From Gammaproteobacteria bacterium (lineage in GTDB: Bacteria; Pseudomonadota; Gammaproteobacteria; Steroidobacterales; JABDMI01): a stretch of DNA of 32,226 bases. Shown here piece by piece: positions 16,905-32,226 of this stretch (the first letter of the stretch is position 1; every line of letters begins with the position of its first letter). The translations under genes and the position numbers were made by a program. Location: assembly GCA_013001575.1 (NCBI GenBank), contig JABDMI010000101.1:1-32226 (forward strand). Reading direction: 5' to 3'. Under the pieces are notes generated by a model. That model was not told the DNA's origin, searched no databases, and saw nothing but the letters and a program-made list of their open reading frames with translations.

Positions 16905-16980
16905 AAAATAAGGAGCCGATTGACTCCGCCTCAAATAAATTTTTAAACGAAAGAGTTGTCCTTTTTCTTCCGGGTTAAAC

Positions 16981-17009
16981 AAAAAAAGTTTGCTTTATCC
17001 AAAGCAAAC
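16981..17009 (-). promoter_or_regulatory. Perfect hairpin with GGAT loop and T-run in the rpsA leader
   Basis: Minus strand GTTTGCTTT (17009-17001), loop GGAT, then AAAGCAAAC (16996-16988), followed by seven T (16987-16981). It lies between cmk and rpsA, about 77 bases before the rpsA ATG. The GGA apical loop resembles the S1-binding hairpins known in gammaproteobacterial rpsA leaders, while the T-run resembles an intrinsic terminator. A second small stem, GGAG/CTCC, lies just before the start codon. Confidence 0.65.
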
Positions 17010-27292: not shown

Positions 27293-28558
27293 TCAGTCTT
27301 CCAATAGAATTTCACGCAAGGCTGCATACTCAGCGGGCACATCTATTGACAGCAATTCGGAATCTTGCACTTTGGCCAAAGCGTCTGGCAGATCCACCGC
27401 TATGCCATTCACACTCATGACATCCAGGAATTTGGCTGGATGCGCCGTACCCAAGACCGCCGTGTGATCCCATAATTGTGCGGCAAATAAAGCCAGTGAA
27501 GTGTGCGGGTCGGCAATGTAGCCGTTTTTAGCCACATGCTGCATCATTTCACGGGTTTGCTGCTCAGTTACCGAAACCGAGAATAAGGACTCGTTCACTT
27601 TGATGTTGTAATTCGCCGCCAAATGCGAGACCCGGGGGAAATTGTTCGGACGCGCCACATCCATTGCATTACTGATGGTTTCAACAGTGGGTCTGGGATC
27701 CCATTTTTTTGTTTCAAAAAATCGCGGCACGGTGTCATTAGCATTGGTCGCGGCAAGAAAGCGTTCTATCGGCAAACCCATGGCCTTGGCCATCAGTCCG
27801 GCGGTTACATTGCCAAAATTTCCGCTGGGCACACAGACGTTTCTCACAGTGGGACGTTGCGCCAAGATCTCAAAGTAATAACAGATCTGGGCCAGCAAGC
27901 GTGCGACATTGATCGAATTGGCCGTGCTGATAGAAACCTTGTCACGCAAATCATCATCGCTAAAAGCTTGTTTGACCATGGCCTGGCAAGCATCAAAATC
28001 GCCATCCACTGCCAGGGTTTGAATATTATAGCCAAGGGTGCAAAAAAGTTTTTCCTGCAAAATTGAGATCTTGCCTTTCGGATACAAAACCACGACCGGG
28101 GTTTTCTCTTGCCCAAAAAATGCATGCGCAACAGCCGCTCCGGTATCGCCGGAAGTTGCCGTGAGTATTGTGGTTTCTTGTTCACCCAAGACGTGATCCA
28201 GACAACGCGCCAAAAAGCGTGCACCAAAGTCTTTAAAGGCAAGCGATGGCCCGTGAAACAATTCCATCACATAGCGGTCCCTTTTTTCATTCACGCAAGG
28301 GATTTCAATGGGGAAATTAAACGCCTCTGTGACAATCCCGGTCAAGCTGTCTTTGTCGATATCCGGTTCAACAAATGGTGCCAGTATCTCGATACTGCGC
28401 TCGACAAAATTCATCTCGAGCAGACGTTCTATCTGCCGGTCCAGGTATTCAGGTATTTTTTCAGGCATAAACAAGCCCTGTCGAGAACCCAAACCACGTT
28501 GAATGGCTTCGCCAAAACTGACCGTTTCGGATTTATCTTTTAGATTGTAGTAACGCAT
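27293..28558 (-). CDS. thrC: Threonine synthase
   Basis: ThrC turns O-phosphohomoserine into threonine using PLP. The 421 residues (E. coli 428) begin MRYYNLKDKSETVSFGEA, typical of the short gammaproteobacterial type. The PLP lysine is K109 in FHGPSLAFKDFGARFL, and TATSGDTGAAVAHAF, NSINVARLLAQICYYF and VPSGNFGNVTAGLMAK cover the cofactor and substrate loops. The ATG follows the thrB TAA stop with no base between, so translation is coupled. mtnA follows after 14 bases. Confidence 0.96.
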   Translation of the reverse strand: MRYYNLKDKSETVSFGEAIQRGLGSRQGLFMPEKIPEYLDRQIERLLEMNFVERSIEILAPFVEPDIDKDSLTGIVTEAFNFPIEIPCVNEKRDRYVMELFHGPSLAFKDFGARFLARCLDHVLGEQETTILTATSGDTGAAVAHAFFGQEKTPVVVLYPKGKISILQEKLFCTLGYNIQTLAVDGDFDACQAMVKQAFSDDDLRDKVSISTANSINVARLLAQICYYFEILAQRPTVRNVCVPSGNFGNVTAGLMAKAMGLPIERFLAATNANDTVPRFFETKKWDPRPTVETISNAMDVARPNNFPRVSHLAANYNIKVNESLFSVSVTEQQTREMMQHVAKNGYIADPHTSLALFAAQLWDHTAVLGTAHPAKFLDVMSVNGIAVDLPDALAKVQDSELLSIDVPAEYAALREILLED

Positions 28559-29515
28559 TTAAACCAACCTGGCACCATGCCGATCACAGTTCGCCCTAAC
28601 GACGAATCCACCCTCCTGACAGTATTCAGAAGCTAGATAATCCACTATACCGTCAACATCATGTTGTTTGTCGACTAGCGCAAAAATAGTTGGCCCTGAA
28701 CCGGATATACCCGACGCCAAGACCTTGAATTGGTTACGCAAACCCTGAGTTACCGTGTCAAACTCCGGCAAAAAGCGTGCCCGGTATGGCTCAGCGATCA
28801 AGTCTTGAATATTGGCCGCCGCCCTGTTCAGGTCATTTCGATGCAAGGCATCGACAAAATGCGCCAGATACTGCATTTGACTGATCACAGCTGAGCGTGG
28901 ATACGCTTGCGGTAAAGCTTGTCGCGCCTGAGCGGTTGGTACATCCACACCGGAATACGCCAACACCAATGACCAGTCCTCGGGCCAGGGTAATAGATTA
29001 GTTTGACTGCTGCCCGCGTGACACAAGCGCAATCCACCTAAATAGGTGGGCGCAATATTATCGTAATGCACACTACCACTTGCACCCGCTTCACAAGCCC
29101 CCATGATCTTAAGGATCTCCTGATCGGTAAAGGGCGTATTGTAAAAAGCGTTTAGCGCCATACAGCTTGCAACAACCGATGTGCCACTTGATCCCAGACC
29201 CGAACAGATGGGCAGATTTTTTTCCAACACCAAATTCACCGGCACTATTAATTCTACGCCGGCCTTTTGGCTTAAACGTTGATTGAATATTTCCAATGCT
29301 TTCCAGACCAGATTGTCATTAATATCTGGTGGCAGGATGTTTGCATATGCACCGTTGAGTGCCAGTGAGTTATCGTCAGCAGCGGCAATCGTGACGGTAT
29401 CACCTAATATGCGATCCGGTGAGGAAACCGCAAGTCCGAGCAGATCAAATCCCACGGAAAAATTTCCAACTGAAGCCGGAGCAAAAACCGACAATGGCAT
29501 AGGTGTTTCGCTCAT
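28559..29515 (-). CDS. thrB: Homoserine kinase
   Basis: ThrB phosphorylates homoserine. The 318 residues form a GHMP kinase: FAPASVGNFSVGFDLLGLAV at the start (residues 11-30), the ATP loop LPICSGLGSSGTS (101-113), and the C-terminal glycine-rich GISGSGPTIFAL motif. The ATG overlaps the thrA stop by 4 bases (ATGA), and the TAA abuts the thrC ATG, so all three thr genes are translationally linked. Confidence 0.95.
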   Translation of the reverse strand: MSETPMPLSVFAPASVGNFSVGFDLLGLAVSSPDRILGDTVTIAAADDNSLALNGAYANILPPDINDNLVWKALEIFNQRLSQKAGVELIVPVNLVLEKNLPICSGLGSSGTSVVASCMALNAFYNTPFTDQEILKIMGACEAGASGSVHYDNIAPTYLGGLRLCHAGSSQTNLLPWPEDWSLVLAYSGVDVPTAQARQALPQAYPRSAVISQMQYLAHFVDALHRNDLNRAAANIQDLIAEPYRARFLPEFDTVTQGLRNQFKVLASGISGSGPTIFALVDKQHDVDGIVDYLASEYCQEGGFVVRANCDRHGARLV

Positions 29516-32022
29516 CGGTCAGCCGGTCCTCGCAAGGTTCGCAAAATATCCCCGAAGACCCCGGCAGCGGTCACTTCAGCGCCGGCTCCGTAACCGCGCA
29601 AGATCAGCGGTTTGGGATTATAGTATTGGGTGTTCAGTACCAACACGTTTTCGCCGTCACGCACACTGGCTAGTGGGTCGGATGCATCCACGGCCTCAAT
29701 TCCCACTTTGCATTTTCCCTGGTGCAAACTGCCAACGTAGCGCAACACTTTATTTTCTTGCTTGGCTGCGCTAATGCGTTCTTGCATTTCGTCATTCAGA
29801 TTTGGTAAGGCGATAAGCATTTCATCCACACTGAGCTCATCAAAGCTCGGGGGTGTCAGTGCTTCAACCTCAATATCGGCGAGCTCCATGTCAAATCCAA
29901 CTTCGCGGGCAATGATCAATAATTTACGTGCCACATCCATTCCGGAAAGATCATCGCGGGGGTCCGGCTCGGTGAAGCCCATGTCTTTGGCTTTGAGAAC
30001 GGCCTCTGAAAAACTCATACCATCTTGTAACAATCCCATTATCAGGGACAAAGACCCTGACAAGATGCCCTGGAATCCAAACAAGGTATCTCCGGAACGC
30101 AATAACGATTGCAATGTGTCCAGCACCGGCAAACCGGCACCTACATTGGTTTCGTATAAGAATTTACGCAAGCTCTGTTTAGCGGCAGTGCGTAATTCGG
30201 CGTAGTAAGCCTGATCTTCGGTATTGGCCTTTTTATTGGCGGCAATAACATGAAACCCGGCGCGTAAAAAACTCGCGTATTGACGACCAAGGGTTGCATT
30301 GGTTGAACAGTCCACAATAACCGGGTTTAGTAAGCCATAACGTTGATGCAAATTGGTCACAGTGGCGTAGTCATACGCTTCACCCTGTTGCTCTAGTTGT
30401 TGTTTCCAGTTATCCAGATCAATCCCGTCCGGTGCGTGTAAAAGTTGACGACTGTTGGCAATGGCGCACACACGTAGACCGATGTGTTGTTCTTTTAGTA
30501 AATCCTGTTGACGTTGAATTTGTGCCAATAATTCGGCTCCAACATTTCCGCAGCCCAGCAAGATCACATCGAGTGGCAATAACTCACTGAAAAAGGCTGC
30601 GTGTGTTGCTTTTACCGCTAACGGTGCCGAGTCGTGTTTGACCACCAGGGCGATGGCACTTTCGGTTGATCCCTGGGCGATGATCTCGACATTCACACGA
30701 GCGGAAGCAATGGCTTGCAAAAAGCGTGCGGCAACCCCGCGCTGATGTTTCATACCATCACCGACCAGAGACACGACCGAACGGCGTTGATTTAATATAA
30801 TAGGCTCCACCAAATGTTGTTCGAGCTCAAAATAAAATTCGTCTTCCAGGGCTTTTTTCGCCACTGCGGCATTCTCGGATGCCACACACAAGGTCAGACT
30901 GTATTCGCTTGAGGATTGAACGATCAACAGTATCGATACATCTTGTCGTGCCAAGGCATCGGAGACGCGACGTGCAAATCCCACCATGCCACGCAAGCCC
31001 ATTCCACTTAGAGTTAACACACTGACATTTTCCAGATGCGTCACACCTTTCACCAAGCGCGCTTGATCAGTCTGTGGACTCGCATGTATCAAAGTGCCAG
31101 GATGCTCGGGTTTGTCAAAATTGCGAATCTCGCAGTCGATCTTGTGCAGGGTCAAGGGCAACAAAGCCTTTGCATTAATGACTTTTGCACCGAAATACGA
31201 CAACTCCATGGCCTCGGTATAACTAACCTCATGCAATAACTGACTATTGGGCACGATGCGCGGGTCTGCGGTATAAATTCCGTAAACATCTTTCCAGATC
31301 TGGCAAAGCCGGGCTTGCAATGCAGCTGCAACACCGGCGGCGGAATAATCCGAACCATTGCGTCCCAGGGTCACAGTTTGATCGGATTGTTCGGGCGAGC
31401 GGTAACTTGCCACAAAACCCGGAATAACCAGCACTTGCGTTTGGGCCTCGACAAAATCATTCAGACGAGCCTGGGTATGTGCTATATCAAAACGCGAACT
31501 TAACGGGGCACGCCTGGCAGAGTCTTCCTGAGCACGAATGTTATCCGGTGTACACCATTGCGCACTCAGACCACGTGATTGCAGGATTGCCGTGAGTATT
31601 TGACTGGAGAGCAACTCTCCGACCACCAGTATTTCAGCCCGGGTTGTGTCAGGACACAAGTCGAGCATGCGAATACCGGAAAGTTTTTGCTGAATGTCAT
31701 CCAGACTGATATCCAAAGTATTGTGTAAATTTTGTATGTAGTTTGCATTCAGATTCAGGGCACTGATGCAATCAATATGCCTTGATTTGAGTGTCTGGAT
31801 CAGATCAGACAGATCGTCATTATTCTCCAAGGCAACCCGTATGGTGTTTTCCAGGGCGTCTGTTATACCAAATAAGGCCGATGTGACCACGGCAACACGC
31901 TGCGATGTGGTGTAAGACTCAACAATATCTGCAATCTTTTGCAGTGAGTTGGCCTCACGCAGGGCTGACCCACCGAATTTTTGTACCAGCCAATCTGAAT
32001 TTGTATTTACGAGAGCATTCAT
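29512..32022 (-). CDS. thrA: Bifunctional aspartate kinase/homoserine dehydrogenase (ThrA-type)
   Basis: One protein carries the first and third steps from aspartate to threonine. The 836 residues (E. coli ThrA 820) start with the aspartokinase domain: KFGGS at 15-19 and TLGRNGSDYSA from 218. Two ACT domains follow (about 330-480), the site of threonine feedback in E. coli. The homoserine dehydrogenase domain has GCGNVG (490-495) for NADP and the substrate region SGSLSLIMGLLQDGMSFSEAV with DPRDDLSGMDVARKLLI. The ATG at 32022 lies inside the stop of a 33-codon leader ORF (ATGA overlap). A promoter and a terminator-like hairpin lie upstream. Confidence 0.96.
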   Translation of the reverse strand: MNALVNTNSDWLVQKFGGSALREANSLQKIADIVESYTTSQRVAVVTSALFGITDALENTIRVALENNDDLSDLIQTLKSRHIDCISALNLNANYIQNLHNTLDISLDDIQQKLSGIRMLDLCPDTTRAEILVVGELLSSQILTAILQSRGLSAQWCTPDNIRAQEDSARRAPLSSRFDIAHTQARLNDFVEAQTQVLVIPGFVASYRSPEQSDQTVTLGRNGSDYSAAGVAAALQARLCQIWKDVYGIYTADPRIVPNSQLLHEVSYTEAMELSYFGAKVINAKALLPLTLHKIDCEIRNFDKPEHPGTLIHASPQTDQARLVKGVTHLENVSVLTLSGMGLRGMVGFARRVSDALARQDVSILLIVQSSSEYSLTLCVASENAAVAKKALEDEFYFELEQHLVEPIILNQRRSVVSLVGDGMKHQRGVAARFLQAIASARVNVEIIAQGSTESAIALVVKHDSAPLAVKATHAAFFSELLPLDVILLGCGNVGAELLAQIQRQQDLLKEQHIGLRVCAIANSRQLLHAPDGIDLDNWKQQLEQQGEAYDYATVTNLHQRYGLLNPVIVDCSTNATLGRQYASFLRAGFHVIAANKKANTEDQAYYAELRTAAKQSLRKFLYETNVGAGLPVLDTLQSLLRSGDTLFGFQGILSGSLSLIMGLLQDGMSFSEAVLKAKDMGFTEPDPRDDLSGMDVARKLLIIAREVGFDMELADIEVEALTPPSFDELSVDEMLIALPNLNDEMQERISAAKQENKVLRYVGSLHQGKCKVGIEAVDASDPLASVRDGENVLVLNTQYYNPKPLILRGYGAGAEVTAAGVFGDILRTLRGPADR

Positions 32023-32120
32023 GGAACTTGTTTATTCTTGTTGATTGATGCGACTAGCAAGGCAATGCCAGACAACACAAAAAAAGAGACAATCGCTTGT
32101 CTCTCACACACGTATATCAT
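32019..32120 (-). CDS. 33-aa leader or small membrane protein overlapping thrA
   Basis: ATG at 32120-32118 is preceded by GGGAG with a 4-base gap (GGGAG-TGTT-ATG), one of the best Shine-Dalgarno sequences in the window. The frame runs 33 codons and its TGA overlaps the thrA ATG by 4 bases, an operon-like join. The peptide begins MIYVCERQAIVSFF and has a hydrophobic core at about residues 9-26, then a basic, polar end. It contains four isoleucines but no threonine, so it is not a Thr-rich peptide like E. coli thrL. The terminator-like hairpin at 32079-32104 lies inside its codons 6-14. It may be a regulatory leader peptide, a genuine small membrane protein, or chance; its function is unknown. 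Confidence 0.5.
   Translation of the reverse strand: MIYVCERQAIVSFFVLSGIALLVASINKNKQVP
32079..32104 (-). terminator. Terminator-like hairpin in the thr leader (candidate attenuator)
   Basis: Minus strand AGAGACAA (32104-32097), loop GCGA, then TTGTCTCT (32092-32085) and seven T (32085-32079, sharing one base with the stem). The stem is perfect and the loop is GNRA-type. It lies between the thr promoter candidate and thrA. Confidence 0.75.
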
Positions 32121-32155
32121 AACACTCCCTGATGCTTTCTAATACCGCTGATTAG

Positions 32156-32183
32156 AGTATAAGTAGGCAAGAAATGTGAACAA
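32156..32183 (-). promoter_or_regulatory. Candidate promoter of the thr operon
   Basis: Minus strand TTGTTC (32183-32178), a 16-base spacer and TATACT (32161-32156) give a predicted leader of about 125 bases before thrA. A second consensus TATAAT box occurs further upstream (32195-32190) without a good -35. Confidence 0.5.
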
Positions 32184-32226
32184 TGAGCGATTATAATTCG
32201 GCTTTCGATTCAAGACCACAAAGAGA

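Follow-up and report, generated by a model that had tools for sequence, protein, structure and literature searches.

A conserved hairpin in the thrABC leader of a gammaproteobacterial genus is probably an intrinsic terminator

Analysis of the 32 226-nt window, i.e. the whole of contig C101 from the gammaproteobacterial genome G000 (2.25 Mb, 132 contigs), revealed a terminator-type hairpin followed by a run of T, situated between a promoter-like site and thrA and found again before the same gene in a congener, G002. We consider it probable, from the comparison of the two genomes, that this element is an intrinsic premature terminator, i.e. an attenuator, in the leader of the thrABC operon, conserved in the genus. 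This reading fits both genomes and assigns the element to a known kind, that of leader terminators with no sensor identified (PMC2965389). With the premature terminators lacking a known sensor that have been found in genome surveys (Naville and Gautheret 2010, PMC2965389) it has in common a 5′-leader terminator recognised without its sensor; that paper, whose main text is silent on threonine and thrA, describes the sensing parts of attenuators as diverse and fast-evolving.

The operon lies on the minus strand in the order thrA, thrB, thrC, the names being taken from NCBIfam: thrA (29512..32022; NF006959, E 1.1e-299) encodes the bifunctional aspartokinase/homoserine dehydrogenase I, thrB (28559..29515; TIGR00191, E 3e-68), which has an ATGA overlap with thrA, the homoserine kinase, and thrC (27293..28558; TIGR00260, E 4e-90) the threonine synthase. 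The upstream side of the leader is bounded by the contig end at 32226, so that the neighbouring gene there is outside view. The genomes compared include two more members of the genus, G001 and G002, and no other genera of the family; the G001 contig begins within thrA, and an intact leader is therefore available in two genomes (G000 and G002). ThrA of G002 is 75% identical to that of G000, and the locus is conserved, with a distance of about 15 kb between thrA and rpsA in both.

The hairpin (32084..32105, minus strand) has a perfect 9-bp stem, with arms at 32105-32097 and 32092-32084, closed by a GCGA loop (32096-32093), and is located 56 nt before thrA and about 80 nt after the likely transcription start. 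A run of seven T (32079..32085, minus strand), the prospective U-tract, can be read directly in the sequence; its first two T are able to pair at the stem base. The description given in the first-pass annotation, a GNRA-loop hairpin with seven T inside an open reading frame (ORF), is thus confirmed on the minus strand. The stability of the stem, which contains three G-C pairs, is moderate, at -10.6 kcal/mol in G000 and -7.0 kcal/mol in G002, and formation of the hairpin is predicted to be near certain in the leaders of both. An outer stem wrapping the G000 hairpin (z -2.4) was considered and dropped, the score falling to z -1.2 when the full leader was folded, with z -0.2 for the G002 leader. 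Chance is an unlikely source of the hairpin, because 8 sites in the window satisfy the strict hairpin and T-run definition, whereas dinucleotide shuffles contain 0.25 on average.

Conservation in the congener carries most of the argument. The G002 hairpin, GAGACATGCGCATGTCTC, is followed by eight T and lies about 33 nt before thrA; over hairpin and T-run 22 of the 25 bases are identical, at the same place before the gene, and one stem pair, A-T in G000 and T-A in G002, has undergone a compensatory swap. The surroundings are far less alike, with 27 of 70 positions identical (14 gap columns) from promoter to hairpin and, downstream of the hairpin, 17 of 33 (29 gap columns). The alignment thereby shows hairpin and T-run to be conserved within the genus beyond their surroundings. 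Both genomes contain a single exact copy of the core GAGACAN6TGTCTC, in each case before thrA. In G001 a one-mismatch palindrome was found on contig C151, near a contig end, beside a gene other than thrA, the product of which we take, from its sequence, to be TsaD-like. A search for relatives among viral contigs found none.

The likely thrABC promoter of G000, TGGTCT-17-TATAAT (32190..32218, minus strand), has a perfect -10 and a poor -35 element and aligns with TGGACA-17-TATAGT of G002 (L003, 1319-1347), which ends 72 nt before the hairpin. From this promoter-like sequence transcription would likely start near 32183. The first-pass annotation had also proposed a promoter candidate, and a promoter-like site is indeed present, but the one conserved in G002 (32218..32190) falls just beyond the interval it reported. 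It had named a transcription start left of 32079 as the finding that would count against it; the conserved site is upstream of the hairpin, and this check therefore does not go against the annotation. The neighbour upstream of thrA in G002 is an amidohydrolase gene on the opposite strand, and since this gene is divergent, the G002 hairpin is not the terminator of an upstream gene. Together with the promoter-like site preceding the hairpin in both genomes, this places the hairpin within the thrA leader. What the two genomes display is therefore a conserved stem and U-tract between a promoter, recognised by resemblance and alignment only, and the first gene, as expected of a leader intrinsic terminator; the terminator between promoter and thrA that had been suggested earlier is, from the G002-conserved hairpin and the upstream promoter-like site, likely.

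If so, RNA polymerase would start near 32183 and in some fraction of rounds would halt at the hairpin and T-run, so that thrABC would be expressed from read-through transcripts only. On the read-through mRNA, a small ORF that spans the hairpin may be translated in the G000 species and hand ribosomes over to thrA, the Shine-Dalgarno (SD) sequence of which is weak (-0.7 kcal/mol to the anti-SD); this would be species-specific. We infer that transcription terminates here in vivo and that this termination is modulated. In the leaders of G000 and G002 we see no Thr/Ile leader peptide and no conserved antiterminator, and pairing of the 5′ arm of the stem with upstream RNA is no better than in shuffled sequences for either genome, so that termination may be constant and partial and not regulated. 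Should the terminator work, early termination would control the making of threonine in this genus with no need of the classical peptide that counts threonine, and the case would illustrate, on a small scale, that leader terminators persist while their sensors change.

The small ORF itself (32019..32120, minus strand) comprises 33 codons, spans the hairpin and ends in an ATGA junction with thrA at 32022-32019. Its peptide, MIYVCERQAIVSFFVLSGIALLVASINKNKQVP (33 aa), contains no Thr codon. A GGGAG SD-like site (32125..32129, minus strand) lies 4 nt before the ATG, and its predicted interaction with the anti-SD (-8.0 kcal/mol) is the strongest among 21 window starts tested. The strong SD, the hydrophobic 33-codon ORF without Thr and the ATGA junction, all reported in the first-pass annotation, can therefore be read in the sequence as it had stated. 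Conservation of the ORF in relatives, which it had put forward as a check, was not found: in the aligned leader of G002, the sole congener with an intact leader, there is no counterpart of the ATG, the GGGAG or the ATGA overlap. In G002 one frame across the hairpin starts at an ATG that lacks a clear SD and ends 2 nt short of thrA; no similarity was found between its peptide and that of G000. This open frame is uninformative, because each of the three reading frames of G002 is open in the stretch that separates hairpin and thrA; the equal length of the two ORFs (33 codons) was likewise judged a coincidence, given the different start, the lack of an SD and the three open frames after the hairpin. 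When the hairpin was held fixed and its flanks were shuffled, an ATG-initiated ORF of at least 25 codons ran through the hairpin in 36% of the sequences; when any start codon was allowed and an SD core was required, the figure was 8.5%. The small ORF thus weakly exceeds the chance expectation and is probably mostly due to chance. No family match was found for its peptide, whose hydrophobicity is a consequence of T-rich codons. For the annotation of leader peptides this is a caution, as chance can read a convincing ORF into a T-rich hairpin.

Several other explanations have to be weighed against a leader terminator of thrABC. It is rather unlikely, in our estimation, that the hairpin ends a small RNA, or another short transcript, started at the same promoter, with thrA expressed by read-through or in some other way. 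The unit from promoter to terminator measures about 100 nt in both genomes, as a small RNA might, but the sequence that separates promoter and hairpin lacks conservation (27/70), it has no match in Rfam, and the gap from T-run to thrA (about 33 nt in G002) is too short for a promoter. From the sequence, a small-RNA terminator and attenuation can hardly be told apart. Unlikely as well is an attenuator of the thr operon in which the thrL peptide was replaced by a new, peptide-independent sensing of amino-acid supply, or by ribosome initiation itself through the strong start set against the stem.

We give somewhat less credence to the model of the first-pass annotation, in which ribosomes translating the 33-codon ORF would block the hairpin and let the polymerase through, as in pyrBI. 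E. coli pyrL provides a real precedent (PMC5021804, PMC10135430), and the strong SD, an ORF that spans the hairpin, the ATGA junction with thrA and the weak SD of thrA all speak for such a model; the G000 leader ORF, like PyrL, reads through a terminator. Against it, the start, SD, overlap and peptide are not kept in G002, and comparable ORFs are frequent by chance in shuffles. A conserved translated leader ORF spanning the terminator is not what we found, the SD-led ORF being present in G000 only. The geometry is also unfavourable, since only 15 nt separate the A of the ATG from the beginning of the stem. A ribosome would have to initiate and advance while the polymerase covers the roughly 40 nt from ATG to T-run, and a pause of the polymerase at the start of the ORF would be required. 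A ribosome needs about 100-200 nt to catch up with the polymerase (PMC4824070), and for a terminator placed 30 bp past a start codon in E. coli, nearly the same geometry, translation cut the termination efficiency by only ∼10% (Li et al., PMC4824070); by these data, 15 nt is a short distance for a ribosome to reach the polymerase before the terminator. Pausing makes pyrBI an exception (PMC4824070); its attenuation requires the polymerase to pause within a leader rich in U (PMC10135430). The G000 operon differs from pyrBI in that ribosomes would start 15 nt from the stem, in the absence of the ORF from the congener and in making threonine. As the ORF is not conserved and a pause would have to be assumed, we regard control of termination by translation of the ORF as improbable and the earlier claim as unsupported.

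It seems very improbable that the inverted repeat serves as the DNA operator of a repressor and not as an RNA hairpin. In favour, GAGACATGCGCATGTCTC, which lies downstream of a promoter-like site in G002, forms a perfect palindrome; against, seven to eight T directly follow the repeat in both genomes, as terminators need, and the exact palindrome core is present only once in either genome, which speaks against a regulon.

The least probable alternative is a divergent thrL-type attenuator with an overlooked leader peptide. The leader could plausibly descend from one of this type, since, outside the genus, the thrA genes nearest to these are preceded by thrL-like leaders containing runs of Thr/Ile. 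The most similar full-length ThrA proteins that we found beyond the genus, those of G740, G533 and G645, are 45-46% identical, and the corresponding leaders are classical-looking, e.g. MRIFNSLNTIIITTTTIIRWWS, with sub-threshold matches to Thr_leader. Yet, whichever frame is read, the leaders of G000 and G002 contain no run of Thr/Ile codons, unlike loci L065-L067, no antiterminator exceeds chance, and Thr_leader was not found at thrA among the matches listed for the genomes of the genus, nor in the window stretch. An Rfam scan of the window and of the leader gave no match, Thr_leader (RF00506) being absent from the window leader at the gathering threshold or at E<=5. This is by itself weak evidence, because control outgroups with obvious thrL-like leaders score 31-46 bits against Thr_leader, also under the 55-bit cut-off. 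With the thr operon attenuator of Enterobacteria and their relatives (thrL, RF00506), the element shares an intrinsic terminator in the thrABC leader; it differs in having no Thr/Ile-rich peptide in the genus, no visible antiterminator, an AT-richer stem and, in G000, a hairpin within the ORF and not after it. It had been described from the outset as unlike thrL, with no Thr codons and the hairpin inside the ORF, and this holds. As the parts of thrL are absent from the genus and no antiterminator rises above shuffles, we do not file the element as a thrL attenuator.

Beyond the genus, the regions upstream of thrA were scanned at 57 loci. A stem of at least 7 bp with a T-run close to thrA was found only in this genus and in one outgroup with thrL, the loop limit of the scanner causing two other thrL outgroups to be missed; three other loci among the 57 gave weak matches with stems of 5-6 bp. 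In genomes of family f4, which belongs to the same order, a GC-rich terminator of the form CCCCGC...GCGGGGATTTTTTT lies about 115 nt upstream of thrA at L013 and L020, and a similar one can be seen by eye further upstream at L031; it may end a co-directional upstream gene. The ThrA of the genus is nearer to the thrL-bearing ThrA of other families in the class (45-46%) than to those of its own order (at most 40% among the genomes searched), which suggests transfer or differential loss. A record labelled 'Marinicella' (L032, CALDFB010000100.1) was rejected as a comparison, its contig starting within thrA and its ThrA being nearer to those of the f154 genomes (57-59% identical) than to that of the genus (47%); this contig may be misbinned or its thrA transferred.

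A second 9-bp hairpin followed by TTTTTTT occurs in the window at 17009..16988 (minus strand), between cmk and rpsA (start near 16907). It is kept in G002 with a compensatory change from T-A to C-G and the same TTTTTTTGTTTAACCC next to it, and is either the terminator of cmk or a terminator in the rpsA leader.
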